41,227 nt of DNA, taken from assembly GCA_020441855.1 (NCBI GenBank), contig JAGRLL010000154.1, positions 1-41,227 of the forward strand, in the 5' to 3' direction. The position numbers were made by a program, and so were the translations under genes. The notes beneath the pieces were generated by a model. The model had not been told where the DNA came from and did not search any database. It saw only the letters and a list, made by a program, of their open reading frames with translations. This DNA is from Nitratireductor sp. (GTDB lineage: Bacteria; Pseudomonadota; Alphaproteobacteria; Rhizobiales; Rhizobiaceae). Shown piece by piece: positions 1 through 18,784 of the stretch; the stretch's first letter is position 1, and each line of letters opens with the position of its first letter.

Positions 1-473
1 TCCTGCTCACCAGCGACAGCCCGGTGGCGCGCTCGGCGCTGGAGCGTTATCTGGCGACCAGCGATCCCGCTGTCATCCGCGTTTCCAAAGCCGTCGACGG
101 TCTTCCGCAACGCTTTATCGAGAATGGCGAGCTTCGCCGTCTGGAGGGCATGTCGTTGCCCGCCCGTCTGGCGATGAGCGTGAAATACGCAAGGCAATGG
201 GGCAAGGGTGCCGGTCTGGGCTTGATCGGGATGGCGAAACTTGGCCTGAAGGTTTTGTCCAGCGGAGACAACAGTTTCGCGCAGACCGTGATGGCGCCCA
301 ACCTGCCGACACTGATCCAGCGGGGGATCGTCGCCGGCGATCCCGATCACGGCCTGTTGCCGAGCGGTCAGGCGGCAGCCGTGATCGACCATCTGGAGAG
401 CTGCGCGGAGCTTGTCGAGCGTATCGTGCAAGAAGCCAACGAACGGATATCGGCCCTGCCGGGAAGAAGCTGA
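1..473 (+). CDS. ipdC: IpdC-like nitronate monooxygenase-family flavin oxidoreductase, C-terminal part (5' truncated by window)
   Basis: The reading frame is open from the left edge (codons begin at base 3) to TGA at 471-473, so this is the last ~156 residues of a longer gene. The fragment reads LLTSDSPVARSALERYL at its start and then VDGLPQR, VMAPNLPTL and PSGQAAAVIDHL. This matches, from memory, the C-terminal third of actinobacterial IpdC (Rv3553), a 2-nitropropane-dioxygenase-fold FMN enzyme that acts on a CoA thioester in steroid ring C/D catabolism. The FMN-binding N-terminal barrel lies outside the window. The stop codon overlaps the ribosome-binding site of the EchA20-like gene, so the two are co-transcribed. 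A generic nitronate monooxygenase is the alternative, but the neighbours favour IpdC. Confidence 0.85.
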   Translation, partial: LLTSDSPVARSALERYLATSDPAVIRVSKAVDGLPQRFIENGELRRLEGMSLPARLAMSVKYARQWGKGAGLGLIGMAKLGLKVLSSGDNSFAQTVMAPNLPTLIQRGIVAGDPDHGLLPSGQAAAVIDHLESCAELVERIVQEANERISALPGRS

Positions 474-486
474 AGGAGCATCCATA

Positions 487-1257
487 ATGAGCAAGCCTTA
501 CCGGACACGATTGGAAGACGGCATCGCCGAACTCGTGATCGACAATCCGCCGGTCAATGCCATGGGCAGTGTCGGCATGCAGCAATTCGCCGATGAAATC
601 GACGCGCTTAACACCGATCCCCAGGTCAGCGTCATCGTCATTCGTGCCGAGGGGCGGGGTTTTCATGCCGGCGTCGACGTCAAGGAATTGCAGCAGCATC
701 CCGAACGCATCACGCTCGTCAATTCCGCCAATTACGAAGTCTTCCGAGCCATCCACCGCGGTCTGAAGCCGGTCATCGTCGCAGCCCACGGCTACGTGCT
801 CGGAGGTGGCATCGGCATTTGCGGTTCCGCCGACATCATTCTGTGCTCACCCGATGCGACCTTCGGTGTGCCCGAAGTCGATCGCGGCGCGCTGGGTGCT
901 GGCGCGCATCTGCAACGCATGTTCCCGGTCCAGAAAGTGCGGCAGATGTACTTCACCGGCGAGCCCATCGATGCCGCGGAAGCCCATCGCCTTGGCGCGG
1001 TCGAGCAGGTCGTGCCACGCGAGCAATTGCGTGACGCAGCCATGGCGCTCGCCGCAAAAATCGCCGCCAAGTCCACCATCATGATCCGCCTTGCCAAGGA
1101 AGCGTTGAACGGCGTCGAGGACGGCGATCTGGAGCACAAATATCGCTGGGAGCAGGGCTTCACCGCCCAGGCCTACATGTCGGCGGAATCGCAGGAGGCG
1201 CGCGACGCCTTCGTCGACAAGCGCTCGGCTGATTTTTCCAAGACGAAATCCGAGTAG
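487..1257 (+). CDS. echA20: EchA20-like crotonase, probable ring-D hydrolase of steroid (HIP) degradation
   Basis: This is a 256-residue crotonase-fold protein. The start is ATG at 487, preceded by AAGGAG at 473-478; an upstream in-frame ATG overlaps the previous gene and has no such site. Signature stretches are RAEGRGFHAGVDVKE (about 53-67, oxyanion-hole region), LGGGIGICGSAD (105-116), ATFGVPEVDRGALGAGAHL (124-142) and EQGFT (222-226). These match Mycobacterium EchA20 (Rv3550), which hydrolyses the ring-D ketone of HIEC-CoA. The first classical hydratase glutamate is Gly110, while the second is kept as Glu130. As I recall the sequence, EchA20 has the same pattern, so it is a hydrolase rather than an enoyl-CoA hydratase. 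It sits between ipdC and ipdF, a strongly diagnostic order. Confidence 0.88.
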   Translation: MSKPYRTRLEDGIAELVIDNPPVNAMGSVGMQQFADEIDALNTDPQVSVIVIRAEGRGFHAGVDVKELQQHPERITLVNSANYEVFRAIHRGLKPVIVAAHGYVLGGGIGICGSADIILCSPDATFGVPEVDRGALGAGAHLQRMFPVQKVRQMYFTGEPIDAAEAHRLGAVEQVVPREQLRDAAMALAAKIAAKSTIMIRLAKEALNGVEDGDLEHKYRWEQGFTAQAYMSAESQEARDAFVDKRSADFSKTKSE

Positions 1258-1269
1258 CGGGACAACAAA

Positions 1270-2070
1270 ATGGTCGATGGTCACACAATTCAGGCACCGC
1301 CTTATGTCGAGGGCCACGAACTCCTCAAGAACCGTTCGGTTCTGATCACGGCCGCGGCGGGTGTGGGCATCGGCTTTGCCGCCGCGAGGCGGGCGATCGA
1401 GGAGGGCTGCCGCTCGATCATGATCTCCGACATCCACGAGCGCCGCCTCAACGAAGCCGCCGACAAGCTGCGCGAGCTGGCGGGCGATGTGCCTGTGTTT
1501 GCGCAATTGTGCAACGTGACCAGCGAGGACGAAGTCCAGGCGCTGGTGGATGCTGCCGAGGAGCAACTCGGCGGTATCGACATTCTCATCAACAATGCCG
1601 GCATGGGCGGGTTCAAGCGTGTCGTCGAGATGAGCGACGCGGAGTGGAACCTGGTGCTCGACGTGACGCTCAATGGCACCATGCGCATGACGCGCGCCGT
1701 CTTGAAGAAAATGATGCCGCGCCGCAGCGGGGCCATCGTCAACAACGCATCCGTCCTGGGATGGCGTGCCCAGAAAGGCCAGTCCCACTATGCGGCGGCC
1801 AAGGCGGCGGTCATGGCGTTCACGCGTTGCAGCGCCGTCGAGGCGGCCGAGCACGGCATCCGCATCAATGCGGTCTCTCCCTCCATCGCGATGCACGAAT
1901 TCCTCAAGAAGGCTGCCGGCCCCGGCGAACTCGAAGCCCTCGCCGCCCAGGAGGCGTTTGGCCGGGCTGCCGAAGTCTGGGAAGTCGCCAATGTCATGAT
2001 GTTCCTTGCCAGCGACTATGCCGGTTACATGGTCGGGGAGATCGTTTCCGTTTCCAGCCAGAGGGCCTGA
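1270..2070 (+). CDS. ipdF: IpdF-like short-chain dehydrogenase/reductase of steroid ring C/D degradation
   Basis: A 266-residue SDR. It has the nucleotide-binding motif TAAAGVGIG (about 27-35), NNAG at 108-111, and catalytic Ser161, Tyr174 and Lys178 in the block NNASVLGWRAQKGQSHYAAAK. That block, the unusual TAAAG glycine motif, the segment INAVSPSIA and the C-terminal FLASDYAGYMVGEIVSVSSQ correspond closely to IpdF (Rv3559c), which acts on the 5-hydroxyl/5-oxo position of indane-carboxyl-CoA intermediates. It starts 12 bases after the echA20 stop with GGGA upstream, and the next gene begins 3 bases after its stop, so it lies inside one operon. Substrate assignment is by family resemblance and context. 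Confidence 0.87.
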   Translation: MVDGHTIQAPPYVEGHELLKNRSVLITAAAGVGIGFAAARRAIEEGCRSIMISDIHERRLNEAADKLRELAGDVPVFAQLCNVTSEDEVQALVDAAEEQLGGIDILINNAGMGGFKRVVEMSDAEWNLVLDVTLNGTMRMTRAVLKKMMPRRSGAIVNNASVLGWRAQKGQSHYAAAKAAVMAFTRCSAVEAAEHGIRINAVSPSIAMHEFLKKAAGPGELEALAAQEAFGRAAEVWEVANVMMFLASDYAGYMVGEIVSVSSQRA

Positions 2071-2073: not shown

Positions 2074-2532
2074 ATGGGGCTTGTTTTCACTTCGCCGCAG
2101 GAAGCCGTTGATGCGGTTGGCACAAAGCTCGGCGAGAGCGAATGGCTGACCGTCGACCAGGCGCGCATTGACGGATTTGCCGAGGCAACCGGCGACCATC
2201 AATGGATCCATGTCGATCCTGAAAGGGCCAGGGACGGGCCGTTCGGCAAAACGGTTGCCCATGGTTATCTGACATTTTCGCTGATCAACATGTTCCTGCC
2301 GGAGCTTTTCCGGGCCGAGGGCATGAAGATGGGCATCAATTACGGTGCCGACCGCCTGCGCTTTCCCGCACCCGTGCCGGTCGGTTCGCGCGTGCGCGCC
2401 GTTGGCGAATTGATCAAGGCGGACCGTCTCGAAGGCAATGCGGTCCAAACGACGGTGCGGATCACCATGGAAATCGAGGGTTCCGACAAGCCCGGCTGCG
2501 TGGCGGATATCCTCGGCCGCTATTATTTCTAG
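2074..2532 (+). CDS. MaoC-like (R)-specific enoyl-CoA hydratase
   Basis: A 152-residue single-hotdog protein of the MaoC/Rv0130 (HtdZ) type. The hydratase motif is clear: ATGDHQWIHVDPERA (about 38-52) supplies Asp41 and His46, followed by GPFGKTVAHGYLTFSL (55-70). Such enzymes hydrate trans-2-enoyl-CoAs to (R)-3-hydroxyacyl-CoAs. Here it probably serves beta-oxidation of the propionate side chain or of a ring-opened intermediate. It begins 3 bases after the ipdF stop and is followed after 19 bases by the SnoaL-like gene. The exact substrate cannot be read from sequence. Length is normal for the family and no residues appear to be missing. Confidence 0.85.
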   Translation: MGLVFTSPQEAVDAVGTKLGESEWLTVDQARIDGFAEATGDHQWIHVDPERARDGPFGKTVAHGYLTFSLINMFLPELFRAEGMKMGINYGADRLRFPAPVPVGSRVRAVGELIKADRLEGNAVQTTVRITMEIEGSDKPGCVADILGRYYF

Positions 2533-2551: not shown

Positions 2552-3184
2552 ATGGATAGCGATGCCCAGGCCGAAATCCTCCGCAGGCTCGATCGCCTCG
2601 AATCCCGAGAACAGATCCGGCAGCTCGCCTCGAAATACGCACTCGCTCTCGACATGCGAGACATGGATGCCATGGCGGGGCTGTTTGTTCCCGATGTCAG
2701 GGTAGGCGGGGGACAGAGCGGGCGCAGGGCATTGCGCGGCTGGCTGGACGATACGATGCGCCATCAGTTCACCGGCACTTCGCATCATGTCGGCACCACA
2801 ATCATCGAGTTCCGGGGCGAGGACGAGGCCGTCGGCGTGGTCTATTCGAAGAACGAGCATGAGACAGGTGACGAATGGGTCATCATGCAGATGATGTATT
2901 ACGACCGCTATCGCCGGGTCGACGGAGGCTGGTATTTCGCGCGTCGCCAGCCGCTCTATTGGTATGCCACCGATCTCAACAAGCCGCCTGTCGGTGCCGG
3001 CAAGATGCGCTGGCCGGACCGCGAGCCCTATGAAGGCTCCTTCCACGAGCTGTTTCCCTCATGGCAGGCTTTCTGGGATCGCGGCGGTCCCGATGACGGC
3101 CCGCTGGCCGAGCCGGCCCCGCTGGAAGAATTCATCGAAACCATGCGCCGGGGCAACGAAGTGCACGGCAACCGCGTTCGCTAG
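2552..3184 (+). CDS. SnoaL-like/NTF2-fold protein, candidate steroid dehydratase or isomerase
   Basis: A 210-residue protein whose first ~130 residues look like a SnoaL_4 (NTF2-like) domain. It has Tyr29 in ASKYALALD, Asp34, an LFVPDVRV strand, and a His-His pair at 78-79 in GTSHHVGT. A Tyr/Asp/His set in this arrangement forms the active site of BaiE-type bile-acid 7alpha-dehydratases, and related SnoaL-like proteins dehydrate or isomerise polycyclic substrates. The C-terminal ~70 residues are an acidic, tryptophan-rich extension (WPDREPYEGSFHELFPSWQAF). Start ATG 2552 has GGAG upstream. It is the last gene of the + strand ipdC operon and converges on the LuxR gene. Function is inferred from fold and neighbours only. 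Confidence 0.7.
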   Translation: MDSDAQAEILRRLDRLESREQIRQLASKYALALDMRDMDAMAGLFVPDVRVGGGQSGRRALRGWLDDTMRHQFTGTSHHVGTTIIEFRGEDEAVGVVYSKNEHETGDEWVIMQMMYYDRYRRVDGGWYFARRQPLYWYATDLNKPPVGAGKMRWPDREPYEGSFHELFPSWQAFWDRGGPDDGPLAEPAPLEEFIETMRRGNEVHGNRVR

Positions 3185-3237: not shown

Positions 3238-4287
3238 TCAGGCTGCCTGTTGCGGGCTGTGCCCCAGGATCACGGCACTGTTCAGGACAAGACGCACCAG
3301 CTCTGTCTGGCGGCTGATGCCGCTCTTGGAGAAGATCGAACGCAGATGCGCGCGCGCGGTGTTCCTGCTGATATCAAGAGAAGCGGCCGCGTCTTCCAGC
3401 GAGAGTCCCGTTGTCAGACGGTGGGTTACGGCCGCCTCTGCCGGCGTGAGGTCAAAAATCTGCCTCACGAACTCGCTTTCCACATCCTGCACCGCATCGC
3501 AGTCGCGCAGGTAGATGGCGACCGCGGACGGGCCGCTGGCGCGTGTATTGACCGGCCTGACGACAATGCCGAGCGAGCGTGCGCCGCACGGTTTGGTGAG
3601 TGACAGGCCGCGGGAGATGCCCGGTCCCGCGTCGCCGACATTCCTCATCGCCGTTTCGCGAATGGCTGCCTGCAGATTGCGGTCTTCGCTCGTGTTGATG
3701 GCGCGCAGTTTGCCGGCCTGGATCTGCAATCCGTCCCGCGCCTGCAAAAGCCGCTCCGCAACGGCGGAACTGCTCGATACCTTGCCGTGCTCGTCGACGA
3801 TGATGACGCCGACATTGAGCCGGTCCAGCGCGTCCGAATACAGGGTCATTTCCGCCGAACCGTTCTCGATGCGCGAAACGAGGTCCAGTGCTCGCGCGAT
3901 CTGCGCAACGAGAATGCCCGCAAGGGCGGTTTCCTCGTTGTCGAAGCGTGATGCCTCGCGGTCGCGGAAGATCCACAGTGAATACTCGACCGAATTGTCG
4001 CGGCCATGCTCGTTCGCCGCCACGTGCTGAAACTGCTTCAGCATCGCGGCGAGCGCTGCCGACTGCTCGCAGGAATCCCTGGTCGCGGCGAAGGCGTCGC
4101 ATCGCTCGTTGGCGAAGAGCAGGCAATTGCCGCCGCGACTTGTAATGCCGAGGACGACGGCTTCGGCGGCAAACTGCTCCTGGATGACATCAAGCGCGGT
4201 GGAAACCGGCAGGCCGTCCGTAAGGCCCTTGGTCAGGGTGTTGAGCAATTGCCCGAAGCCGACGATGGATCTCGAATGATAGGTCAC
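3238..4287 (-). CDS. LuxR-type transcriptional regulator with GAF/PAS-like sensory region
   Basis: A 349-residue regulator. The start is GTG at 4287-4285, directly preceded (5'->3' on the - strand) by GGGAGGAAAAGCT, a near-perfect ribosome-binding site. The C-terminal ~65 residues form a LuxR/GerE helix-turn-helix: LTPAEAAV (280-287), then LSLEDAAASLDISRNTARAH (295-314) and SKSGISRQTELVRLVL. Residues ~10-140 resemble a GAF domain and ~148-190 a PAS-like segment (DRLNVGVIIVDEHGKV). There is no receiver domain, so a bound small molecule is the likely signal. LuxR-type activators are known in proteobacterial steroid degraders (TeiR of Comamonas). It is transcribed away from the SDR upstream and converges on the ipd operon, so it is a good candidate local regulator. 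Its target is not proven. Confidence 0.8.
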   Translation of the reverse strand: MTYHSRSIVGFGQLLNTLTKGLTDGLPVSTALDVIQEQFAAEAVVLGITSRGGNCLLFANERCDAFAATRDSCEQSAALAAMLKQFQHVAANEHGRDNSVEYSLWIFRDREASRFDNEETALAGILVAQIARALDLVSRIENGSAEMTLYSDALDRLNVGVIIVDEHGKVSSSSAVAERLLQARDGLQIQAGKLRAINTSEDRNLQAAIRETAMRNVGDAGPGISRGLSLTKPCGARSLGIVVRPVNTRASGPSAVAIYLRDCDAVQDVESEFVRQIFDLTPAEAAVTHRLTTGLSLEDAAASLDISRNTARAHLRSIFSKSGISRQTELVRLVLNSAVILGHSPQQAA

Positions 4288-4674: not shown

Positions 4675-5490
4675 TTAGGCCGTGTCGTCCGAGTGCCGGC
4701 GCACAATGTCGAGAAAGAGCGGCATCTCGCCGCCGCCATGCACTTCAAGTGTCGCCCCGCTGACGAAGCCTGCCATTGGCGAGGACAGATAGAGGGCTGC
4801 TGCGGCTATATCCGCCCCGTTGCCCATCCGCTTCATCGGCACGGAGGCTGCGATTTCCTCCTGCGCCGCTTTCGAGCCGTAGCTGAGTTCGACCTGCTCG
4901 GTCTGCATCAGTCCCGCGACGATGGCATTGACGCGGATGGTCGGTCCCCATTCCTGCGCAAGGCTTCGGGTCAGGTTGAGCAGTCCTGCCTTGGCGGCTC
5001 CGTAGGCCACGGTTCCCGGTGCCGGCCGCACCCCGGCCACGCTGGCGATATTGACGATGGAACCGCCATCGGGCTGTGCGCTCATCCAGCGATGGACTGC
5101 CTGGGAAAGATGCAGGGGACCGGTGAGGTTGAGCGCAATGATGGCCTCGGAGAAACGGGGCGACACCGTCGCGGCCTCGACGGGGGGCGATCCGCCGGCA
5201 TTGTTCACCAGAACGTCGATACGCCCATGTGCCTCGCCAACTGCGTCGACGAATGCTCGGCAGGAGGCGGCGTCGCGTACATCGCAGGCGTGAAAAGTCG
5301 CGCTTCGACCACCGCTTTCGGGCAGGGAATCGGGCTGCGAACGCGCGCAGACGGCCACGTTGGCGCCGGCATCCAGGAATGCCTGCGCAATGGACCTGCC
5401 GATGCCCTTCGTTCCACCGGTCACGAGGACGACACGGCCATCCATGCCGTCATGAAATGCGTCGCTGCCTTGCTTCAAGTTCTGCTCCAT
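4675..5490 (-). CDS. Short-chain dehydrogenase/reductase
   Basis: A 271-residue classical SDR. Motifs are TGGTKGIG (about 24-31), NNAGG, an Asn-rich IALNLTG segment, and catalytic Tyr and Lys in VAYGAAKAGL. The C-terminus carries VSGATLEVHGGGEMPLF, typical of 3-ketoacyl or hydroxysteroid-type SDRs. The ATG at 5490 has no obvious ribosome-binding site, and an internal ATG 15 codons later (5445, MDGRVVLV) would give a protein starting right at the Rossmann fold, so the start is uncertain. It diverges from the FadD3-like ligase across 186 bases. It probably oxidises or reduces a hydroxyl or ketone on a steroid-derived CoA ester. Actinobacterial KstR2 regulons also contain extra SDRs (Rv3548c/Rv3549c). 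The substrate is unknown. Confidence 0.8.
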   Translation of the reverse strand: MEQNLKQGSDAFHDGMDGRVVLVTGGTKGIGRSIAQAFLDAGANVAVCARSQPDSLPESGGRSATFHACDVRDAASCRAFVDAVGEAHGRIDVLVNNAGGSPPVEAATVSPRFSEAIIALNLTGPLHLSQAVHRWMSAQPDGGSIVNIASVAGVRPAPGTVAYGAAKAGLLNLTRSLAQEWGPTIRVNAIVAGLMQTEQVELSYGSKAAQEEIAASVPMKRMGNGADIAAAALYLSSPMAGFVSGATLEVHGGGEMPLFLDIVRRHSDDTA

Positions 5491-5676: not shown

Positions 5677-7263
5677 ATGACAGCCGACAATTCGAGCTGG
5701 ACCTTCACCACAATTCCGGCCCTTTGCGCACTGGCAGCCCAGACCTATGGCGACGATGTTGCCATCGAGGACACAGGGTTAACAATCACCTTCGTCGAAC
5801 TGGACGCCCTGCGCAGGCGTGTCGCCAAGGCTTTCATGGCTCGCGGTATCGAAAAAGGCGACCGCGTCATGATCTGGGGACCCAATTCGTGGAAATGGTT
5901 CGCCGCCGCCCTCGGCCTGGTCAGCGCCGGCGGTGTTCTGATCCCGTGCTCCACCCGTTTCCAGGGGGGCGAGGTTGGCGAACTGGTCAGCCGAAGCGGC
6001 ACGACGATGATGCTCTCGACCGGCGAATTCCTCGGCAAGTACTACCCGGACCTGCTTCGCCCCGAAACGCGCAAGGAACTGCGCGACCTGGTGGTTTTCG
6101 ACGGCGCGCGTGAGGGAGAAACACCCTGGGATGACTTTCTCGCCGGTGGTGATGCGATCTCCGATGCGCAGCTCGACGCGCGCACTGCCACGGTCGGCCC
6201 CGACGATCTGTGCGACATGCTTTTTACCTCAGGCACGACCGGTTATCCCAAGGGCGTGATGTACGGGCATCGTCAGTGCCTGCGCGTGCTTGACGCCTGG
6301 GCTACGCGCGTGGGGATAAGGCGCGGCGACCGCGTGCTGGTAATTCCGCCCTTCTTCCATGCCTTCGGCTACCGCTCCGGCGCCATTGTTTCCCTGATGC
6401 GCGGCGCGGTCTTGTTGCCGCACCTGACCTACGACCCCGATGAGATCCTTCATCGCGTGGAGCGCGACAGGGTCAGCGTCATTCCCGGACCGCCGGCCAT
6501 CTTCCACGGTATGCTCCAGCATCCGGAACTGAAGAAATTCGATACATCCAGCCTGCGCCTCGGCATAACCGGCGGCGCGGTCGTGCCTTCGACACTCATC
6601 CGGCGCATGCGCTCCGATCTGGGCTTCGCCGGAGTCGTCAACGGCTATGGTCTGACGGAATGCGGCGGCTATGGCGCCATGTGCCAGTCCGACGATCCCG
6701 ACGAGGTGATTGCCAATACGTGCGGCAAACCCCTGCCGGATACCGAAATGCGCATTGTCGACGAGGATGGCAGGGCGCTGCCGGACGGAGAGGCCGGGGA
6801 GGTGGTGATCCGGGGCTACCTGACCATGCGCGGTTATTTCAACGACCCCGAGGCGACGGCCAGGACGATCGACAAGGACGGCTGGCTGCATACTGGCGAC
6901 ATCGGCTATTTCGATCCGGACGGAAATCTTCGTATCGAGGACCGCATCAAGGACATGTACATAAGCGGGGGATTCAACTGCTATCCGGCGGAAATCGAAC
7001 GCCTGCTGAGCGCCCATCCCGCCGTCGGGCAGATCGCGGTGATCGGCGTTCCCGACGAGCGGCTGGGCGAGGTCGGCAAGGCATTTGTGGTTCTGCGGCC
7101 CGGCACCTCGGCCAGCGAAGCGGAACTGACCGGATGGGCACGCGCCAACATCGCCAATTACAAGGTGCCCCGCAGCATCGAGTTTCGCGAGGCGCTGCCA
7201 ACCAGCCCGCAGGGCAAGGTGGTCAAGGATCAGTTGCGCAAGGAGGCGGGCGCCGGGGCGTAG
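5677..7263 (+). CDS. fadD3: FadD3-like acyl-CoA ligase (candidate HIP-CoA ligase)
   Basis: A 528-residue ANL-superfamily ligase. The ATP/AMP P-loop LFTSGTTGYPKG is at 182-193, FFHAFGYRSG at 226-235, the A5 motif YGLTE at 324-328, HTGDIG at 405-410, the hinge region DRIKDMYISGGFNCYP at 422-437, and the adenylation lysine is Lys514 in SPQGKVVK. The long similarity with FadD3 (Rv3561), including the central FFH-FGY and GVPDERLGEVG stretches, plus the adjacent ipdC-echA20-ipdF genes, argues that it activates HIP or a close indane propionate to its CoA ester. AGGAA precedes the ATG. It is transcribed alone, divergent from the SDR and convergent with the thiolase operon. Medium-chain or other carboxylate ligase activity cannot be excluded. 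Confidence 0.82.
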   Translation: MTADNSSWTFTTIPALCALAAQTYGDDVAIEDTGLTITFVELDALRRRVAKAFMARGIEKGDRVMIWGPNSWKWFAAALGLVSAGGVLIPCSTRFQGGEVGELVSRSGTTMMLSTGEFLGKYYPDLLRPETRKELRDLVVFDGAREGETPWDDFLAGGDAISDAQLDARTATVGPDDLCDMLFTSGTTGYPKGVMYGHRQCLRVLDAWATRVGIRRGDRVLVIPPFFHAFGYRSGAIVSLMRGAVLLPHLTYDPDEILHRVERDRVSVIPGPPAIFHGMLQHPELKKFDTSSLRLGITGGAVVPSTLIRRMRSDLGFAGVVNGYGLTECGGYGAMCQSDDPDEVIANTCGKPLPDTEMRIVDEDGRALPDGEAGEVVIRGYLTMRGYFNDPEATARTIDKDGWLHTGDIGYFDPDGNLRIEDRIKDMYISGGFNCYPAEIERLLSAHPAVGQIAVIGVPDERLGEVGKAFVVLRPGTSASEAELTGWARANIANYKVPRSIEFREALPTSPQGKVVKDQLRKEAGAGA

Positions 7264-7282: not shown

Positions 7283-8191
7283 TCAACTTGTGCCGTAGAC
7301 CGGTTTTGCCGCCGGACGGTGGGCGAGCAATTCCTCGATCTTCGATCCGACGCCTTCGGCATCCCATCGCGAACCCTTGTCGAATTCCGGCCCGTCGTTC
7401 CAGCCCAGGCAGATTCGGATGATGCCGCCGACGAGCTCGAATACCTGTCCGCTCACTCCCGCCGAGCGCTCGCTGCACAGCCAGGCCACCAGCGGTGCGG
7501 TGTTTTCCGGCGCGAAGATGTCGAAGACGCCTTCCTTGGGTTTCATCGCCTCGGCAAAGGCCGTTTCCGTCATGCGCGTTCGCGCGACCGGGGCCAGTGC
7601 GTTGGCGGTGATTCCGTAACGCGCGAGTTCGGCCGCCTGCACGAGCGTGAGCGTGGCAATGCCCGCCTTCGCCGCCGAATAGGCGCTCTGGCCGATACTG
7701 CCCTGCAACCCGGCACCCGACGAGGTGTTGATGATGCGCGCATCGACCTTTTCGCCGGCCTTCTGGCGTCCACGCCAATATTCGGCTGCGTGGCGGCTGA
7801 TGCAGAAATGCCCCCTCAGGTGCACCTGCATCACCGCGTCCCATTCATCCGGCGTGCAGGATACGAACATGCGGTCGCGCACGAAGCCGGCATTGTTTAC
7901 CACGGCATGCAATTCCCCGAAGGCGTCGAGCGCGGCCTGGACGATGCGTCCGCCTGCCTCGAAGTCCGTGACATCGTCGGTATTGGCGATCGCTTCGCCG
8001 CCCATTGCCCTGATCTCGTCGACGACCTGTTGTGCGGGGTTTTCCGCCGTGGCGTCGCCGTGCGTGCCAACCCCCAGGTCGTTGACGATCACCTTGGCGC
8101 CTTCGCCGGCAAGGCCCAGCGCGTAGGCCCGGCCAAGGCCGCGGCCGGCGCCGGTGACGATGACAACACGATTCTGGCAGATGCCAGCCAT
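7283..8191 (-). CDS. Hsd4A/Rv3548c-like SDR, (3R)-hydroxyacyl-CoA or hydroxysteroid dehydrogenase
   Basis: A 302-residue SDR. I place the start at the ATG at 8191-8189 because GAAGGAGAAT directly precedes it; a longer frame upstream runs into the previous gene. The N-terminus VVIVTGAGRGLGRAYALGLA followed by VIVNDLG is the hallmark of the SDR domain of peroxisomal multifunctional enzyme 2 and of Hsd4A (Rv3502c), which oxidises (R)-hydroxyacyl-CoAs of steroid side chains. The length also fits Rv3548c of the KstR2 regulon. NNAGFVRDRM and catalytic Tyr/Lys in GQSAYSAAKAGIA are intact, and a ~45-residue C-terminal tail follows the fold. It is the last gene of the seven-gene - strand operon, 13 bases after the PaaY-like gene. 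Confidence 0.82.
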   Translation of the reverse strand: MAGICQNRVVIVTGAGRGLGRAYALGLAGEGAKVIVNDLGVGTHGDATAENPAQQVVDEIRAMGGEAIANTDDVTDFEAGGRIVQAALDAFGELHAVVNNAGFVRDRMFVSCTPDEWDAVMQVHLRGHFCISRHAAEYWRGRQKAGEKVDARIINTSSGAGLQGSIGQSAYSAAKAGIATLTLVQAAELARYGITANALAPVARTRMTETAFAEAMKPKEGVFDIFAPENTAPLVAWLCSERSAGVSGQVFELVGGIIRICLGWNDGPEFDKGSRWDAEGVGSKIEELLAHRPAAKPVYGTS

Positions 8192-8204: not shown

Positions 8205-8807
8205 TCAATCCGGTCTGGTGGACAAGCGCACGGCGCGTGCGTCGCCCGCATTGCGCCGGCGGTTGGGTTCGGGTTCACGCAAGGGTTCGCATTCCCGCAG
8301 GTCCGCGAGCGAGCGGTCGGCAAGGCGCTGGTACTCGCCGTTGCCGTCATTGCGCCAAAGGATGGCCTTCTCCGGCAATTCCCTGACCGGTTTCGCCGGG
8401 TTGCCGGCGATCAGATGGCGTGCAGGCATGATTGCGTCGTTCCTGACGAGGCTGAGCGCAGCAACCAGGGATTCCTCGCCGATCTCGGCACCGTCCAGCA
8501 CGACACTGTTCATGCCGACGAGTGCGTTCACCCCGACCGCGCAGCCGTGCAGCACGACGCCATGGCCGATGGTCGCGCCGCGCTTCACGATACAGTCCGA
8601 ACCCGCCCCGGTATGCAAGGTGCAGCAATCCTGGATGCTCGAATCTCCCTCGATGAGAATGCGTCCGAAATCGCCGCGAAGCGAGGCGTGCGGGCCGATA
8701 TAGCAGCGCGGCCCGATCGTGACATCGCCGATCAGCACCGCACTGGGATGCAGGTAGGTGGTCGGATCGACAACCGGCACGATGCCCTCGAAGGAATAGA
8801 CCGGCAT
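8205..8807 (-). CDS. PaaY/CaiE-type gamma-carbonic-anhydrase-like hexapeptide-repeat protein
   Basis: A 200-residue left-handed beta-helix protein. It opens MPVYSFEGIVPVVDPTTYLHPSAVLIGDV and continues with hexapeptide repeats (IGPHASLRGDFG, IGHGVVLHGC, VGMNSVVLDGAEIGEES). Metal-type histidines are visible in CTLHTG and GHGVVLHGC. The sequence pattern and the EYQRLADR C-terminal helix match PaaY and CaiE. PaaY is a thioesterase that clears dead-end CoA esters in phenylacetate breakdown, while CaiE supports the carnitine CoA cycle. Here it sits between the FadA6-like thiolase (4-base gap) and an SDR, so a role in freeing CoA from stalled steroid-acyl-CoAs is plausible. The C-terminal ~30 residues are Arg/Asp/Pro-rich and unlike the family core. 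Confidence 0.82.
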   Translation of the reverse strand: MPVYSFEGIVPVVDPTTYLHPSAVLIGDVTIGPRCYIGPHASLRGDFGRILIEGDSSIQDCCTLHTGAGSDCIVKRGATIGHGVVLHGCAVGVNALVGMNSVVLDGAEIGEESLVAALSLVRNDAIMPARHLIAGNPAKPVRELPEKAILWRNDGNGEYQRLADRSLADLRECEPLREPEPNRRRNAGDARAVRLSTRPD

Positions 8808-8811: not shown

Positions 8812-9963
8812 CTACAATCTTTCGATGATCGTTACGTTGGCCTGCCCGCCGCCCTCGCACATGGTCTGCAGGCCGTAACGGCCCTGGCGACGTTCGAGTT
8901 CGCAAAGCAGCGTCGTCATGACGCGCGCGCCGGTCGCGCCGATCGGATGGCCGAGCGCAATGGCGCCGCCGTTGACGTTCACCTTCTCGTGCGGAATGCC
9001 GATCTCCTTCATCCAGGCAAGCGGAATGGAGGCGAAGGCCTCGTTGCATTCGAAAAGGTCGATGTCGTCGACGGAAAGGCCGCTTTTCTTCAACGCATGC
9101 TGCGTGGCGGGAATGGGCGCGGTCAGCATCCACACGGGATCGGCGGCGCGCACCGTCATGGTGTGGATACGCGCCCGCGGTTTCAGGCCGTGATCCTTCA
9201 CCGCGCGTTCAGATGCGATCAGCAATGCCGATGAAGCATCGGCGTTCTGGCTCGAAACGCCGGCGGTTACGCTTCCGCCCTCGACCAGGGGTTTGAGTTC
9301 CGCCATCTTCTCGATGCTGGTTTCGCGGCGCGGCGTTTCGTCGGTGTCGAATTCGCCAACCGGTACGATCTCGCGCTTGAAGCGCCCGGAATCGATGGCA
9401 TCGATGGCGCGACGATGGCTTTCGAATGCGAAGCGCTCCATTTCCTCGCGCGAACTTTTCCACTTCTCCGCGATCATCTCTGCAGAGCGGAACTGGCCGA
9501 CTTCCTGGTCTCCGTAACGCGCTTGCCAGCCCTGCGAGGTGGCGAAGGGCGTGGGAAAGCCGAATTGCTGGCCGACGATCATCGCTGCCGAGATGGGGAT
9601 CGCGTTCATGTTCTGCACGCCGCCGGCAACCACCAGATCCTGCTGGCCGCTCATCACGCCAAGGGCCGCGAAGTGAACCGCCTGCTGCGCCGAACCGCAT
9701 TGGCGGTCGACTGTCACGCCCGGCACATGTTCGGGCAGGCCGGCCACCAGCCAGCAGGTTCTCGCGATATCGCCAGACTGGCTTCCGATGGTGTCGGTGC
9801 AGCCATAGATCACGTCATCCACGGCGCCGGGATCGATGTCGGTGCGCTGCATCAGCGCCGAGATCGGCACCGCGCCCAGGTCGGCCGAATGCATGGCCGC
9901 GAGCGACCCTTTCTTGCGCCCGACGGGGGTGCGCACCGCGTCGACAATGTAAGCCTCAGGCAT
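8812..9963 (-). CDS. fadA6: FadA6-like thiolase
   Basis: A 383-residue thiolase II-type enzyme. The start is the ATG at 9963, with AAGGAAAG upstream. All catalytic elements are present: nucleophile Cys89 in VDRQCGSAQQAVHFAA, NEAF at 307-310, His339 in GGAIALGHPIGATGAR, and Cys369 in MCEGGGQ. In the HIP pathway FadA6 (Rv3556c, about the same length) cleaves the beta-keto CoA ester produced after rings C and D are opened. Its presence in one operon with two acyl-CoA dehydrogenases and a crotonase, next to the ipdC-echA20-ipdF genes, supports that role. The start overlaps the end of the upstream dehydrogenase gene by 8 bases, which implies translational coupling. A general acetyl-CoA acetyltransferase is the alternative. 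Confidence 0.85.
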   Translation of the reverse strand: MPEAYIVDAVRTPVGRKKGSLAAMHSADLGAVPISALMQRTDIDPGAVDDVIYGCTDTIGSQSGDIARTCWLVAGLPEHVPGVTVDRQCGSAQQAVHFAALGVMSGQQDLVVAGGVQNMNAIPISAAMIVGQQFGFPTPFATSQGWQARYGDQEVGQFRSAEMIAEKWKSSREEMERFAFESHRRAIDAIDSGRFKREIVPVGEFDTDETPRRETSIEKMAELKPLVEGGSVTAGVSSQNADASSALLIASERAVKDHGLKPRARIHTMTVRAADPVWMLTAPIPATQHALKKSGLSVDDIDLFECNEAFASIPLAWMKEIGIPHEKVNVNGGAIALGHPIGATGARVMTTLLCELERRQGRYGLQTMCEGGGQANVTIIERL

Positions 9964-11011
9964 TCTGACTTTCCTTTGCGAATGTGTGTTCCGGCCCGAG
10001 CCGGCCGGTGAAGACACGTTGACCGACGCGCGCGCGGTGGAAGGCTTTTGTGCCCCACCAGCTGTCGAGTGCGATGGCGCGCTTGAGGTAGAAGTGGACG
10101 TCGACCTCCCAGGAATAACCCATCGCGCCATGGACCTGGATCGCCGCGCGCACGGCATCGTCCGCTGCCTGCCCGGCGGCAAGCTTTGCATGCGAGACAC
10201 GCGCCGCCGAATAGAGATCGGATTGGGGTAGCGATGCCGCCGCGGCATGGACGACGGGCTTTGCGAATTCGATCTTCACCTGTGCGCTCGCCAGACGGTG
10301 CTTGACCGCCTGATAGCTGCCGATCGGCTTGCCGAATTGCCGGCGTTCGCCGGCATAGGCGACGGCAAGGTCGACGCTGCGTTGCGCGATGCCGATGAGT
10401 TGGGCGGCCGCGAACAATGCGCCGCGATCGAACGCGGCGCGAAGCATCGGCGCTGCATCGGCGGCGCTGGCGATCCGGGTTGACGATCCGGGTTCGAAAG
10501 CGACGGTGAACAACCGGCGGAACGGGTCGACGCTTTCCTGTCTTTCCAGCCTTGCCTGCGCCGGGTTGACCAGATGCAGTTCGCCCTCGCGTTCGAGAAG
10601 GAGCGCGCCCGCGCTGTCTGCGTCTGCGATGAAGGCATTCGACGGATGCGAGACGGCTATCGTGGCCGCGCCTTCAAGGGCTGCTGCGAGCAATTCGTTA
10701 CCCGGCGCTGCTTCGGCCAGAAGCGGCAGCGCGACACCGGCATTCTCGACAAGCGGCTCGGGCAGGCAGGCATGGCCGGCGGCTTCCGCGATGCGCACGA
10801 AATCGACTGGTTTCAGACCGAGCCCGCCATAGCTCTCCGGCACCAGAGCGCCGGCAAGGCCCATGTCGACGATGCCGGACCAGCGACGTTCGTCGCGCGC
10901 CTGGCCCGATTCCATCAGCCTGCGCAAATCGGACGACTGGCAAAGGTCGCCGAGCAGCTCGCGCAGGACGTTCGCCATCATTTCCTGTTCTTCGGTGAAG
11001 CGAAAATCCAT
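9956..11011 (-). CDS. Acyl-CoA dehydrogenase, partner subunit of a probable hetero-oligomer
   Basis: A 351-residue acyl-CoA dehydrogenase. It has the N-terminal helical domain (MDFRFTEEQEMM), a shortened middle domain, and the C-terminal FAD/tetramer helices (RRQFGKPIGSYQAVKHRLA, IQVHGAMGYSWE). At the helix-G position where isovaleryl-type enzymes carry the catalytic glutamate, this protein has Asp195 in RAAFDRGALF. The companion gene has FERG there. Steroid-degrading bacteria commonly use alpha2beta2 dehydrogenases built from two different FadE chains with one active-site type. The 3-base spacing to the larger dehydrogenase gene fits such a pair. The exact substrate is not readable, but a ring C/D or side-chain CoA ester is likely. 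Confidence 0.83.
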   Translation of the reverse strand: MDFRFTEEQEMMANVLRELLGDLCQSSDLRRLMESGQARDERRWSGIVDMGLAGALVPESYGGLGLKPVDFVRIAEAAGHACLPEPLVENAGVALPLLAEAAPGNELLAAALEGAATIAVSHPSNAFIADADSAGALLLEREGELHLVNPAQARLERQESVDPFRRLFTVAFEPGSSTRIASAADAAPMLRAAFDRGALFAAAQLIGIAQRSVDLAVAYAGERRQFGKPIGSYQAVKHRLASAQVKIEFAKPVVHAAAASLPQSDLYSAARVSHAKLAAGQAADDAVRAAIQVHGAMGYSWEVDVHFYLKRAIALDSWWGTKAFHRARVGQRVFTGRLGPEHTFAKESQNA

Positions 11012-11014: not shown

Positions 11015-12178
11015 TCAGGCTCTCGGCAGGCTAAGCATGCGCTCGGCGATGATGTTGCGTTGTATCTCGTTGGAACCGGCATAGATGGGGCCGGCGAGGG
11101 AGAAGAAGTAGCCGTCAAGCCATCTGCCCACATCGCCGGCTGCCGGTGCCGAATGCAGGAGTTCAGCCCGGGCGCCCAGGATCGAAAGCGCGCTCCTGTG
11201 CATGGCGATGTCCATTTCAGACCAGAAGATCTTGTTGGTGCTCGCTTCTGCGCCGATACGTTCGCCTGCTTCCAGCCGGGAGGCCGTGGCATACACCGAG
11301 AGCGCATAGGCTTCCGCGTCCATCCAGCTTTGCAGTACAGCGGCTTGCACGCACGGCTCGACCTCGTTCTCGTGCGCCTTGTATAGGTCGACCAGCTTTC
11401 TGGCTGCCACTTGAAAGCGGGCCGGCGAACGCAGCATCAGGCCGCGCTCGAAACCGGCGGTGGCCATGCAGATGCTCCAGCCTTCGCCTTCGCCGCCCAG
11501 CCGGTTGAATGCCGGCACGCGCACGTCTTCGAGAAAGATTTCGGCAAAGCCGGTCTCTCCGTCGATCTGCGGTATCGGTTGCACGCGAACACCGGGTGCA
11601 TCGAGCGGGAAGAAGATCAGCGACAGGCCCTTGTGGCGTTCCGATTGCGGGTCGGTGCGGAACAGGCCGAAAGCCCAGTCTGCATAGACCGCGCGCGAGG
11701 ACCAGATCTTGTGCCCTTTAAGAAGATAGTCGTCGCCATCGCGTGTCGCGGACGAGGATACCGCCGCGAGGTCGCTGCCGGCCTGCGGTTCCGACCATGC
11801 CTGCGCCCATATCTCGTCGCCGCAGGCCATTGCCGTGAGGAACCGCGCCTTCTGCTCGTCCGTGCCGTATTCCATGAGGGTGGGTCCGAGAAGAAAAATG
11901 CCGTTCTGGTTGACTCGCAACGGCGCTTGCGCACGGTAATATTCTTCCTCGAAGATCAGCCATTGGATCAGGTCGAGGCCGCGCCCGCCATAGCGCTTGG
12001 GCCAGGTGACCATGCCCCATTGCCCCTCGCTCAGCGTGCGTTCCCAGGCCCTGTGTGCCTCGAATCCCTCTCGGGACAGATCGAATGACGGCAGCGGGGC
12101 GGAGGGCACGTTCGCCTCCATCCATGTGCGGACTTCCTGACGGAAGGCTTCCTGCTCGTCGGTGTAATGCAAGTCCAC
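11015..12178 (-). CDS. Acyl-CoA dehydrogenase, FadE30-like catalytic subunit
   Basis: A 387-residue acyl-CoA dehydrogenase with normal domain order. FAD- and substrate-contact motifs are visible: WAQAWSEPQAGSDLAAV (124-140), IWSSRAVYADW (158-168), and the C-terminal YAGSNEIQRNIIAERMLSLPR. The catalytic base is probably Glu244 in AGFERG, because the other possible site in the YAGSNEIQR loop carries Ala. The general layout and the NIIAERxLxLPR end resemble FadE30 (Rv3560c) and related KstR2-regulon dehydrogenases. The gene follows the crotonase after 52 bases and precedes the smaller dehydrogenase by 3 bases, so they probably form one heteromeric enzyme. It likely introduces the alpha-beta double bond in an indane carboxyl-CoA or a ring-opened product. 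Confidence 0.84.
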   Translation of the reverse strand: MDLHYTDEQEAFRQEVRTWMEANVPSAPLPSFDLSREGFEAHRAWERTLSEGQWGMVTWPKRYGGRGLDLIQWLIFEEEYYRAQAPLRVNQNGIFLLGPTLMEYGTDEQKARFLTAMACGDEIWAQAWSEPQAGSDLAAVSSSATRDGDDYLLKGHKIWSSRAVYADWAFGLFRTDPQSERHKGLSLIFFPLDAPGVRVQPIPQIDGETGFAEIFLEDVRVPAFNRLGGEGEGWSICMATAGFERGLMLRSPARFQVAARKLVDLYKAHENEVEPCVQAAVLQSWMDAEAYALSVYATASRLEAGERIGAEASTNKIFWSEMDIAMHRSALSILGARAELLHSAPAAGDVGRWLDGYFFSLAGPIYAGSNEIQRNIIAERMLSLPRA

Positions 12179-12230: not shown

Positions 12231-13127
12231 TCAGTCCTTGCCGGCCTGCTTCTTGTTGGCGGCGGCCATGCTCTTGCCGTCGAGTCCGCCAAGGCGGTCG
12301 CCGGTGACAAGATCGTTCTGGGCGTGCGCGAAATGGTGCATGTGGTAGACGGCATCCATGGCTACGCGCTTGCCCGCCAGTTCTTCGACGTGGTTGATCG
12401 CCTGTTTGCCGAGCCACAATCCGAGCCGGGGGAAGCCGGCGAGCTTGGTCGCCATTTCACGGCCGGCCTCGTCCAGTTCCTCGCGCGTGACGATCTTGTT
12501 GACCATGCCGAACTGGTGCGCGCGCGCCGCGGGCATGCGTTCGCCGAGCAGCAGGAATTCCTTGGCCACGCGCGGCGGCAATTCATAGGCGTGAGCAAAA
12601 TATTCCACGCCCGGAATGCCCATCCGCATCACGGGATCCTGAAAGAAGGCATCTTCCGTGGCGATGATGAAATCGCATATCCAGGCGAGCATCAGGCCGC
12701 CCGCGACACAGGCGCCCTGGACGAGCGCGATCGTGGGTTTCTGCATCTCGCGCCAGCGCCTGCACATGCCCAGATAGACCTCGTGCTCGCGCGTATAGAG
12801 AAACTCGGCGCCGGGCTTGTTGAAGTGATCCGCCCACAAGAGGCGGCGCTCGAAGCTCTTGTCGACATCGCGTCCCGGCGTGCCGATGTCGTGGCCGGCG
12901 GAGAAATGCTTGCCCGCGCCTTTCAGGATGATCGCCCGCACAGCGTCGTCATCGATCGCCCGCTTGAAGGCGTCGTCCAGCGCGTAGGTCATCTGGGAGT
13001 TCTGGACATTGTTGTAGGTCGGGCGATTCATGGTCACCCACGCGATCGGCCCCTCGGTCTCATACAGGACCGGCTCGTCCGTCTCGTAGACAATGTCCGC
13101 TTTTCGCGGCTCGACGAAGTCGTTCAT
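12231..13127 (-). CDS. Crotonase-family protein (EchA13-like) lacking both classical hydratase glutamates
   Basis: A 298-residue crotonase-fold protein with a ~15-residue N-terminal extension and a Lys/Ala-rich C-terminus. The oxyanion-hole region is AGKHFSAGHDIG (71-82), followed by a long lid (FNKPGAEFLYTREHEVYLGM). The second block is GACVAGGLMLAWICDFIIATEDAF. The two glutamates that add water in enoyl-CoA hydratases align with Met146 and Val166, so it is unlikely to be a simple hydratase. The FFQDPVMRMGIPGVEYFAHAYE segment resembles EchA13 (Rv1935c)-type proteins of unproven function. It is the second gene of the - strand operon, between the thioesterase and the dehydrogenase pair. Isomerase, hydrolase or C-C lyase activity is possible. 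Confidence 0.8.
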   Translation of the reverse strand: MNDFVEPRKADIVYETDEPVLYETEGPIAWVTMNRPTYNNVQNSQMTYALDDAFKRAIDDDAVRAIILKGAGKHFSAGHDIGTPGRDVDKSFERRLLWADHFNKPGAEFLYTREHEVYLGMCRRWREMQKPTIALVQGACVAGGLMLAWICDFIIATEDAFFQDPVMRMGIPGVEYFAHAYELPPRVAKEFLLLGERMPAARAHQFGMVNKIVTREELDEAGREMATKLAGFPRLGLWLGKQAINHVEELAGKRVAMDAVYHMHHFAHAQNDLVTGDRLGGLDGKSMAAANKKQAGKD

Positions 13128-13268: not shown

Positions 13269-13781
13269 TCAGCGCACGGGCCGACGGCCTTCGATCCGGT
13301 GCAATATGCCTGCAACCGGCGGTTCGCCGGCATGCGCCGCGACGCAACGTGCGATGACGGCGCGCGCCTGCGGCGACGTCATTTCGACGCTCTTTCGGGT
13401 GCGCAGATCGACGTGGATCGACACCGCATCGACATGGGCGGCCCTGTACTGGCGGGTGAGGTTCCACATTTCGTGGAAATGATGAACTCGGCGGAAGTCC
13501 GTCCAGATCACACGGCTGCGGACCTCGATCGCGTCTCCCGACATGTTCTCCCGTTCGTAGCCGACGAGTTTCTCGAGCCGGAAGAAGGTCAGGCCGGTCT
13601 CGCGGATGGAGTTCTCCTCGATGCCGAATTCCACGAAGAACCGCATTTCGGCCTCGTCGAACACCCGGTCGTACCAGGATACGTTCATGTGCTCGTTGGC
13701 ATCCAGCCAATCGGGTCCCACTTCGCCACGGAAGCTGACATGGGGATGGGGGAAATCTTCTGGCGGAGTGAATGTGCTCAT
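13269..13781 (-). CDS. Hotdog-fold acyl-CoA thioesterase (4HBT-like)
   Basis: A 170-residue protein starting at ATG 13781 (AGGAC about 10 bases upstream); an in-frame ATG 12 codons earlier lacks a ribosome-binding site. The segment DWLDANEHMNVSWYDRVFDEA (positions about 24-44) is the 4-hydroxybenzoyl-CoA thioesterase-type motif, with the acidic residue, HMN, and the following helix. The rest continues as a single hotdog domain (SVIWTDFRRVHHFHEMWN region). It would release CoA from steroid-derived or branched acyl-CoAs. It is the first gene of the - strand operon, 141 bases upstream of the crotonase, and diverges from the SDR at 14112. Actual substrate unknown. Confidence 0.78.
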   Translation of the reverse strand: MSTFTPPEDFPHPHVSFRGEVGPDWLDANEHMNVSWYDRVFDEAEMRFFVEFGIEENSIRETGLTFFRLEKLVGYERENMSGDAIEVRSRVIWTDFRRVHHFHEMWNLTRQYRAAHVDAVSIHVDLRTRKSVEMTSPQARAVIARCVAAHAGEPPVAGILHRIEGRRPVR

Positions 13782-14111
13782 CGTCCAGTCCTGGATATGC
13801 GGGCATCGCCCACGCATCGGCCAAACGGACTATCAGGCCGTTACGGGGGCTAACTTCACCTGCGCGCGCCATTCCCTGTCCTGACCTGGGCACCGATCCG
13901 GCTTCGGCCGTGCTCCAGGAAGCTCTGACCGCCGGTAAGCGTGATGTAAGCATGACGATTGAGCGCACTTTGCATTCGCATGATCCATTTGGACGTTTCG
14001 TCCGGGCAGGGGCCGGCTTACGGATCGCTTGCGATGATCTGGCCAATCGATTCTTGACCAAGCGACGACTGGGCCGAACCGCGCCGCCAACCGAAGAAAA
14101 GGGATTCCCGC
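13782..14111. other. Divergent promoter region between thioesterase operon and SDR
   Basis: This 330-base stretch should hold the promoters of the seven-gene - strand operon and of the + strand SDR. I see no gene in it. A 5-bp inverted repeat GGACG-TTT-CGTCC lies at 13991-14003. It shares its half-site with the repeat at 5579-5594 in front of the FadD3-like gene, so a common regulator is possible but unproven. Confidence 0.5.
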
Positions 14112-17664: not shown

Positions 17665-17667
17665 GAT

Positions 17668-18525: not shown

Positions 18526-18635
18526 GTTCCGATCCTCTTGCTTGCTGAATTCGACGGTCCCGAGGCGTCGCCGGGTTCGGGAGTTCAGGGATCAGGCCTC
18601 AAGGCATCTCGTTCAGTCGCACCCCCGGGCGCGCC

Positions 18636-18660
18636 TGACCGGCCTTGCCCGGCCCGGTCA
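18636..18660. repeat. Inverted repeat in the binding-protein/livH intergenic region
   Basis: TGACCGG (18636-18642) and CCGGTCA (18654-18660) are exact inverted copies, with further GGCC/GGCC pairing possible inside. Together with the hairpin at 18726-18756 it lies in the mRNA between the binding-protein gene and livH. It may reduce downstream expression or stabilise the upstream message. Confidence 0.45.
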
Positions 18661-18756: not shown

Positions 18757-18784
18757 TCCGCCACGATGCGCAGCTTGAATGCGC

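Follow-up and report, generated by a model that had tools for sequence, protein, structure and literature searches.

HIP, the bicyclic acid that retains rings C and D of steroids, is degraded in Actinobacteria by the pathway of the KstR2 regulon, whose members are given in PMC5380842 as IpdABCF, EchA20, FadD3, FadE30–33 and FadA6; proteobacterial steroid degraders have counterparts, among them the scd cluster of Comamonas testosteroni and an operon of Pseudomonas mandelii. Uptake of partly degraded cholate metabolites is described for Rhodococcus jostii RHA1 (PMC8399759), in which perhydroindane metabolites enter through the major facilitator superfamily protein CamM, and ring-A-aromatised ones through the ABC system CamABCD. 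Here we analyse contig JAGRLL010000154.1 of a Nitratireductor sp. draft genome (assembly GCA_020441855.1), referred to below as the window (41,227 nucleotides, the whole of contig C237); the genome amounts to 4.73 Mb in 466 contigs and is 80.7% complete. An earlier note, made from the letters of this DNA, had recognised the consecutive genes ipdC, echA20 and ipdF at positions 1–2070 of an apparent alphaproteobacterium. The three genes are indeed there, in one direction and nearly abutting, and the origin is alphaproteobacterial, the nearest named relatives of the window being Hyphomicrobiales (in which we place Aquamicrobium, Devosia, Microvirga and Alsobacter).

Each protein type of the actinobacterial pathway has a candidate in this genome, either in the window or on contigs C49 and C78; taken together, the genes of the three contigs make the HIP pathway complete in the draft. 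Unlike in Actinobacteria, no clear match to KstR2 was found (a TetR protein of the region of locus L009, from a relative, hits KstR2 at 1.6e-12 and other TetR proteins at up to 5.6e-27), and the genes of this lineage are accompanied by MaoC, SnoaL and LuxR proteins, an ABC importer of the branched-chain (LIV) type and an ACAD11-type pair. Counterparts of ScdL1L2, N, K, Y, M1M2, F, E, G, D and J of the proteobacterial systems are likewise present, and a LuxR neighbour is common to the window and the Pseudomonas operon; the likeness to Comamonas goes by gene names mapped through PMC8399759 and PMC13101464, the sequences themselves not having been compared. Unlike the scd cluster and the Pseudomonas operon, however, the present genes form separate blocks, spread over several contigs and both strands, LIV importers adjoin them, and TesB/HsaC and KshA were not found. 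With a probability of roughly two in three, we read this as a stand-alone HIP module, with which the bacterium would take in HIP-type bicyclic acids that other steroid degraders release, and degrade them fully. The candidate importers resemble CamM and CamABCD in that partly degraded cholate metabolites would be taken up, but are of the LIV ABC type, and are likened to the RHA1 systems by description, not by sequence.

Identity of the HIP genes

Two operons served as references. That of Pseudomonas mandelii (L033) holds ipdA, ipdB, scdN, ipdC, echA20, fadE31, fadE32, fadA6, scdE, ipdF, maoC, a thiolase gene and luxR; the other (L241) is a steroid-type ipdAB operon of another alphaproteobacterium (G288), which carries KshA, HsaA and HsaC. 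Both were compared by one-way BLAST, here and below, with the proteins of the window, C78 and C49, and gene names were mapped through Table 1 of PMC8399759, Table 1 of PMC5380842 and PMC13101464. IpdC, EchA20, IpdF, FadE31/32, FadA6, ScdE and ScdN of the window match genes of both operons, and its MaoC protein matches one in Pseudomonas. Together with FadD3, these are the genes at issue, and all except FadD3 are the expected best partners of the operon genes among our proteins compared, at about 40–73% identity. Thus EchA20 is 62.4% identical to its Pseudomonas counterpart and 59.1% to that of the G288 operon, and IpdF is 73.4% identical to the Pseudomonas operon protein. In addition, EchA20, IpdF, FadD3, FadA6, ScdE and ScdN pass the cut-offs of their NCBIfam profiles. 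The earlier note had named, as a refutation, best matches to generic crotonases, short-chain dehydrogenases/reductases (SDRs) and nitronate monooxygenases from clusters unconnected with steroids; this did not happen, the matches being to genes of ipdAB operons. In a tree, EchA20 falls among the operon EchA20 sequences, with moderate support (84/86) and on long branches, so that the tree serves as supporting evidence only. The window ScdN clusters with ipdAB-operon ScdN at 100/99.

The three leading genes are separated by 13 (ipdC–echA20) and 12 bases (echA20–ipdF), with a further 3 bases between ipdF and the MaoC gene; their third-position GC is 0.75–0.81, and AGGAG stands a few bases 5′ of echA20. 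EchA20 contains RAEGRGFHAGVDVKE and IpdF contains NNASVLGWRAQKGQSHY. The best solved structure for IpdF is 3o38 (E 3.8e-89; the next is at 1.4e-39), which we take to be IpdF of Mycobacterium smegmatis. The ipdC gene is truncated by the contig start; its remaining 156 residues are 74.7–79.5% identical to IpdC of four relatives' loci (L009, L010, L014 and L029). A second, nearly complete ipdC copy lies on contig C146 of the same draft (L008:6217–7254), beside genes that read as a LacI-type regulator and a sugar-ABC transporter. The two copies are 79% identical over 152 residues, and the ends of C49 and C146 have 25 bases in common, which suggests that the assembly may have broken at a duplicated ipdC.

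The earlier note had taken the whole left third for a HIP pathway with a FadD3-like ligase, a FadE pair and a FadA6-like thiolase. The FadD3 profile and the operon partners agree with these gene calls and with most of the module, but ipdAB (C78) and a FadE30/33-type pair (C49, with a ScdJ thiolase) lie outside the window in the same draft, and the neighbourhood as it was pictured has to be extended by a SnoaL-fold protein and LIV-type importers. For FadD3 the call rests mainly on the profile, as the BLAST margin over a second ligase of the genome is slight (the L241 ligase is 48.8% identical to the window FadD3 vs 45.4% to the second one; L033 has no ligase).

On C78, IpdA and IpdB are 56.8 and 61.7% identical to the Pseudomonas proteins. 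The best structure for IpdA is 6co6 (E 8e-76, vs 8.8e-21 for glutaconate CoA-transferase), deposited as a probable CoA-transferase alpha subunit, presumably IpdAB of RHA1. IpdB has Gly, and the Pseudomonas protein Ser, at the position where a classical CoA-transferase beta subunit of the same genome has Glu; loss of this Glu is given in PMC5380842 as a trait of IpdAB. Three genes near ipdAB (L092:5868–9469) read as a xanthine-dehydrogenase-type molybdoenzyme. Sequence evidence could hardly be stronger for assigning positions 1–2070 and the associated genes to a real HIP module, carried by a member of the Hyphomicrobiales.

Search for ring A/B oxygenases

The enzymes of ring A/B degradation were sought in 40 genomes, comprising 29 IpdA-positive targets (28 Hyphomicrobiales and one Oceanicola) and 11 controls. 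The targets were the present genome, 20 draws from the family and eight named genomes (Aminobacter, Nitratireductor, two Devosia, Microvirga, Alsobacter, a Rhizobiaceae metagenome-assembled genome (MAG) and Oceanicola); they were picked by IpdA similarity or ipdF loci and are no census. Ten named genomes were swapped for identical family copies (G001/G476, G002/G753, G004/G533, G005/G420 and G008/G697, with the further identical pairs G009/G737, G010/G589, G011/G518, G012/G641 and G017/G459, which have the same contig coordinates). The controls were seven other IpdA-positive alphaproteobacteria from a class sample and four gammaproteobacteria. The KshA model (A3) was built from three Pseudomonas sequences (G019, G020 and G022) and the TesB/HsaC model (A4) from the same three genomes plus one Marinobacterium (G021), and HsaA was searched with the NCBIfam model. 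The source genomes are therefore positive by construction for their models, and the seven alphaproteobacterial controls are independent.

None of the 29 targets has a KshA match at E ≤ 1e-25, vs all 11 controls, the weakest of which is at 9.2e-52; the best Rieske match of the present genome covers 104 residues at 38%. HsaA exceeds 150 bits in no target (five are at 131–149 bits) and reaches at least 313 bits in 10 of the 11 controls, G074 having none. For HsaC/TesB, nothing was found at E ≤ 1e-10 in 24 of the 29 targets, the present genome included, and a score of at least 278 bits is reached by 0/29 targets vs 11/11 controls. Among the alphaproteobacterial controls, KshA and HsaC are detected in 7/7 and HsaA in 6/7, and the four gammaproteobacteria carry all three. 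Models A3 and A4 hold no alphaproteobacterial sequence and yet detect the alphaproteobacterial controls, and so reach the enzymes of this class. Furthermore, 18 of the 20 family targets are at least 90% complete, which makes assembly gaps an unlikely cause of the absences. For the genomes tested, and as judged by homology searches, the absence of the 9,10-seco oxygenases from the lineage is well supported, and a life on imported HIP is most likely, being the simplest consequence of this pattern; uptake and substrate are what we infer from it.

The Oceanicola genome (sp. S124; L032 and L173) has an ipdA/ipdF block with LIV genes near it, and no match to KshA (E ≤ 1e-25) or HsaA (E ≤ 1e-30). By this pattern, Hyphomicrobiales may not be the only group that the stand-alone module has reached.

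Conservation among relatives and LIV-type importers

A scan of named genomes for IpdF, of which the best 80 of 297 matches were considered, returned Aquamicrobium, Oricola, Aminobacter, Nitratireductor, Devosia, Microvirga and other alphaproteobacteria, and then Pseudomonas, Marinobacterium and others. Cultured carriers include Aminobacter ciceronei DSM 15910, Aquamicrobium sp. LC103 and Nitratireductor aestuarii CGMCC 1.15320. The scan's alphaproteobacterial loci minus Oceanicola form a group of 22 Hyphomicrobiales loci, two of which (L017 and L029) are classified only to phylum or class. Gene order was judged by alignment position in fetched loci of 5.7–20.8 kb. The order ipdC–echA20–ipdF is kept in 22/22 of them; maoC follows ipdF in 21, and snoaL follows maoC in 18. 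The arrangement fadD3–sdrB–hexapeptide–fadA6 is common to L009, L010 and L029. In Rhizobiales bacterium 65-9 (L048:8230–9194), ipdC reads as two pieces. IpdA is present in all 23 genomes searched, the present one included (L015 was left out), and in evenly drawn samples it occurs, at E ≤ 1e-60, in 8/385 genomes of the class and 21/394 of the family, our genome being in both.

Of 17 Hyphomicrobiales stretches fetched around IpdA, 15 contain LIV permease genes, as do 10 of the 22 around IpdF and the two stretches from Oceanicola. Such genes occur in 0/57 gammaproteobacterial ipdF loci, in 0/7 loci from four other alphaproteobacterial steroid degraders (two of these loci with ipdA) and in 1/20 arbitrary stretches of the same Hyphomicrobiales genomes, which were hand-picked on known contigs, 19 of them on contigs that hold HIP loci. 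The C78 permease that adjoins ipdAB is 75–86% identical in 13/17 loci. The LIV block of the window differs from it, and is found at 75–79% after luxR in L024. Conserved as it is, the LIV block is a candidate HIP importer.

SnoaL-fold protein and ACAD11-like pair

The SnoaL gene occurs in 20/22 of the group's ipdF loci, and the two loci without it (L026 and L027) are short. A 59% relative lies about 8 kb from ipdF in Vibrio sp. PID17_43 (L039:1657–2289), the only such gammaproteobacterial locus among the best 80 of 297. In a fold search, the bile-acid 7alpha-dehydratase BaiE occupies ranks 1–4 (E 3.0e-8 to 2.0e-7), with a model of mean pLDDT of only 62.9; by sequence BaiE is a weak match (E 0.014), outscored by a putative scytalone dehydratase and by LinA. 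Y29, D34, H78 and H79 are invariant in 16 sequences; the catalytic Tyr, Asp and His of BaiE are presumably Y30, D35 and H83, to which part of the invariant set may correspond. The 12beta-dehydratase SteC of Comamonas is described in PMC13101464 as a SnoaL protein with a BaiE-like modelled structure. This precedent and the BaiE-like fold of the model suggest that hydroxylated, bile-acid-derived HIP may be among the substrates.

The ipdAB operon on C78 also encodes an acyl-CoA dehydrogenase (ACAD) and a kinase, each with ACAD11 among its best matches of solved structure. The dehydrogenase matches ACAD11 at 2.6e-146 and 4hr3 at 1.4e-145, the next ordinary ACAD being at 3.8e-42; the kinase matches 3dxp at 4.3e-116 and then ACAD11 at 1.7e-71. 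Of 17 Hyphomicrobiales ipdA loci, 14 have the ACAD at an identity of at least 50% and 10 the kinase; an SDR that accompanies them is found at this level in 16, and a FadB-like fusion in 15. At the same threshold, none of the four is found in 57 gammaproteobacterial loci, in seven loci of the other alphaproteobacterial controls or in 25 other stretches (20 arbitrary ones and five extradiol loci). A kinase and acyl-CoA dehydrogenase pair is likewise known from the lva operon of Pseudomonas putida and from mammalian ACAD10/ACAD11; unlike these, the C78 pair sits in an ipdAB operon, and the likeness to lva goes by description, LvaA and LvaC not being among the sequences compared. ACAD11 and LvaA/LvaC are reported to convert 4-hydroxyacyl-CoA to enoyl-CoA via a phosphate ester (PMC12440821), and the fate of delta2-MOODA-CoA is called unclear in PMC5380842. 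By analogy, the present pair might act on a 4-oxo acid after its reduction, for instance at one end of MOODA.

Alternative explanations

Several observations count against a stand-alone module that lives on imported HIP. The curated HsaA cut-off of 450 bits is passed by 0/40 genomes, controls included, so that the HsaA result is carried by the score gap and not by the cut-off. Five of the 29 targets have an extradiol dioxygenase at 174–219 bits; the neighbours of these five genes read as TRAP transporter, hydrolase and aromatic-monooxygenase genes, in unrelated-looking clusters. A comparison of HsaC and biphenyl dioxygenase profile scores, applied at first to two of the five, fails to separate a likely true alphaproteobacterial HsaC from enzymes of the biphenyl type: that of G064, which adjoins HsaA, scores 266.9 with the biphenyl profile vs 238.4 with that of HsaC. 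This discriminator was dropped, and the score gap and gene neighbourhood were used in its place. The present genome is an incomplete draft, and its own absences rest on its relatives. The search covered KshA, HsaA and HsaC, and KstD and the enzymes of the anaerobic 2,3-seco and estrogen 4,5-seco routes lie outside it. The FadE32-type protein is below the IpdE2 equivalog cut-off (147.9 vs 450 bits). As for uptake, LIV transporters carry many substrates, LIV genes are near ipdF in only 10/22 loci, and the LIV counts are not independent, since stretches around ipdA and around ipdF overlap in part when they come from the same genome.

Could the genes form a generic beta-oxidation cluster of crotonase, SDR and nitronate monooxygenase-like enzymes with no link to steroids? 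Their folds are common, and the window holds further crotonase and ligase genes; set against the equivalog cut-offs passed, the operon-wide matches, IpdAB in the same genome and IpdA in all 22 other genomes searched, this reading is left with a negligible probability, and was rejected on the profile cut-offs and the operon matching. An ordinary 9,10-seco degrader, whose ring A/B genes were missed through draft assembly or divergence, would suit a genome in 466 contigs with a fifth of its content missing, and Holert et al. (PMC5790920) assigned steroid-degradation hits to Rhizobiales. The completeness of the family relatives, the lack of KshA at E ≤ 1e-25 and of HsaA above 150 bits in all targets and the detection of the same enzymes in the other alphaproteobacteria make it very improbable, and a full degrader hidden by the assembly was rejected on these relatives and controls.

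Slightly less remote, yet still improbable, is that the module degrades some other hydrindane or polycyclic acid, such as a plant or bacterial terpenoid fragment. Without ring A/B genes no feature of the genome forces a steroid origin, and the searches of gammaproteobacterial loci did not detect the kinase–ACAD pair, the SDR or the FadB fusion that adjoin ipdAB. Nevertheless, the diagnostic HIP steps are matched, at the identities given above, by operons of organisms with steroid oxygenases, and the fold of the SnoaL protein is nearest to bile-acid dehydratases. Alternatively, HIP might be made inside the cell by the 2,3-seco or 4,5-seco route, both of which converge at HIP according to PMC12507874. 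The 2,3-seco route uses molybdoenzymes (PMC8399759), and one that reads as the xanthine-dehydrogenase type lies near ipdAB on C78, but no relative of it is found near IpdA in the loci of 18 relatives (matches of at least 33% listed), and it was dropped as a marker of that route. In addition, 24/29 genomes lack an HsaC-like dioxygenase at E ≤ 1e-10, although an estrogen-type enzyme may be too distant for the model to detect. We regard internal production of HIP as unlikely, and retain the stand-alone module for imported HIP as the preferred explanation.

Proposed pathway and implications

With step roles as published for the orthologues and transferred here by orthology, the stand-alone module would work as follows. 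LIV-type ABC importers would bring in bicyclic steroid remnants, and FadD3 would activate HIP, after which the propionate chain would be shortened by a FadE pair, MaoC, ScdE and the thiolase. IpdF and IpdC would then produce HIEC-CoA, EchA20 would open ring D and IpdAB ring C, and FadA6, FadE31/32 and ScdN would degrade the remainder. The SnoaL protein may dehydrate hydroxylated, bile-acid-derived HIP, and the ACAD11/LvaAC-like kinase–dehydrogenase pair may handle a late hydroxy-acid intermediate; the position of this pair next to ipdAB yields a hypothesis on how the pathway ends that can be put to the test. Given the apparent lack of ring A/B oxygenases, 9,10-seco growth on intact cholate or testosterone is predicted to fail, and growth on HIP should work.

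More tentatively, and at slightly less than even odds, the Hyphomicrobiales carriers and the one Oceanicola might be seen as a guild of HIP specialists, in which the C/D half of steroid degradation is uncoupled from the A/B half and equipped with its own LIV importers, a BaiE-like dehydratase and an ACAD11/LvaAC-like branch, with mineralisation split between species and HIP traded as a public good. HIP has served as an extracellular marker metabolite (PMC12507874), and is stated in PMC10100752 to meet the criteria of carboxyl-rich alicyclic molecules. If the carriers do feed on HIP, the mineralisation of steroids and bile acids is a division of labour in which HIP has dedicated consumers, and surveys that require KshA or HsaC for a steroid degrader, such as that of the MAGs in PMC5790920, would miss users of the bicyclic remnant only. 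No paper on a HIP module without ring A/B genes, or on HIP use by Rhizobiaceae, was among the matches listed in the open-licence PMC literature, which is weak evidence of novelty.

Gene content of the window

The features of the module are collected in the table. The SDR that precedes the FadD3 gene is a candidate for the C9-hydrogenase ScdB or an equivalent of Rv3549c.

Table. Genes of the HIP module and its neighbourhood in the window (identities to operon proteins from one-way BLAST)
Feature	Position	Strand	Evidence
ipdC/scdK, C-terminal 156 residues only (5-OH HIC-CoA reductase-type flavoenzyme)	3–473	+	Pfam NMO (nitronate monooxygenase) 32.3 bits, cut-off 28
echA20/scdY (HIEC-CoA ring-D hydrolase)	487–1257	+	NCBIfam NF005925 356.6 bits, cut-off 260
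ipdF/scdG (5-oxo HIC-CoA oxidase-type SDR)	1270–2070	+	NCBIfam NF005880 424.4 bits, cut-off 336
scdD-type MaoC hydratase	2074–2532	+	PF01575 89.7 bits; 59.9% to MaoC after Pseudomonas ipdF
SnoaL/NTF2-fold protein, candidate hydroxysteroid (HIP-hydroxyl) dehydratase	2552–3184	+	PF13577
LuxR-type regulator, TesR-like position	3238–4287	-	GerE domain; 40.4% over 250 residues to LuxR beside Pseudomonas operon
SDR, PRK07856 type	4675–5490	-	NF005893 358.6 bits, cut-off 255; 58–59% relative in Pseudomonas ipdF loci L043, L044, L056
fadD3/scdA-type HIP-CoA ligase	5677–7263	+	NF005801 'FadD3 family' 671.7 bits, cut-off 657
scdE-type SDR (Rv3548c type)	7283–8191	-	NF005861 458.3 bits, cut-off 373; 62.7% and 54.8% to operon ScdE
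Hexapeptide-repeat protein, kept in cluster	8205–8807	-	PF00132; syntenic in L009, L010, L029
fadA6/scdF thiolase	8812–9963	-	NF005865 674.9 bits, cut-off 591; 69.7% and 63.3% to operon FadA6
fadE32-type acyl-CoA dehydrogenase, small partner	9956–11011	-	42.1% and 44.3% to operon FadE32
fadE31-type acyl-CoA dehydrogenase	11015–12178	-	69.3% and 61.9% to operon FadE31
scdN-type crotonase	12231–13127	-	NF006140 416 bits, cut-off 280; 66.9% and 64.5% to ipdAB-operon ScdN
4HBT-type thioesterase, possible member	13269–13817	-	PF13279 71.3 bits; 37–46% relatives beside LIV genes in HIP loci
SDR conserved with LIV genes and scdN in L024	14112–14984	+	78% in L024
LIV ABC importer (livF, fused livM-livG, livH, livK-type binding protein), candidate HIP uptake	15122–20041	-	PF00005, PF02653, PF13458 over cut-off

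Beyond the LIV block, positions 20466–25883 hold a LysR regulator and, on the opposite strand, the parts of a different class of transporter: two permeases, an ABC ATPase and a solute-binding protein. Further on, positions 29219–38854 carry a second CoA-type degradation block (two crotonases, an SDR and an AMP ligase), together with another set of LIV permeases and a binding protein.

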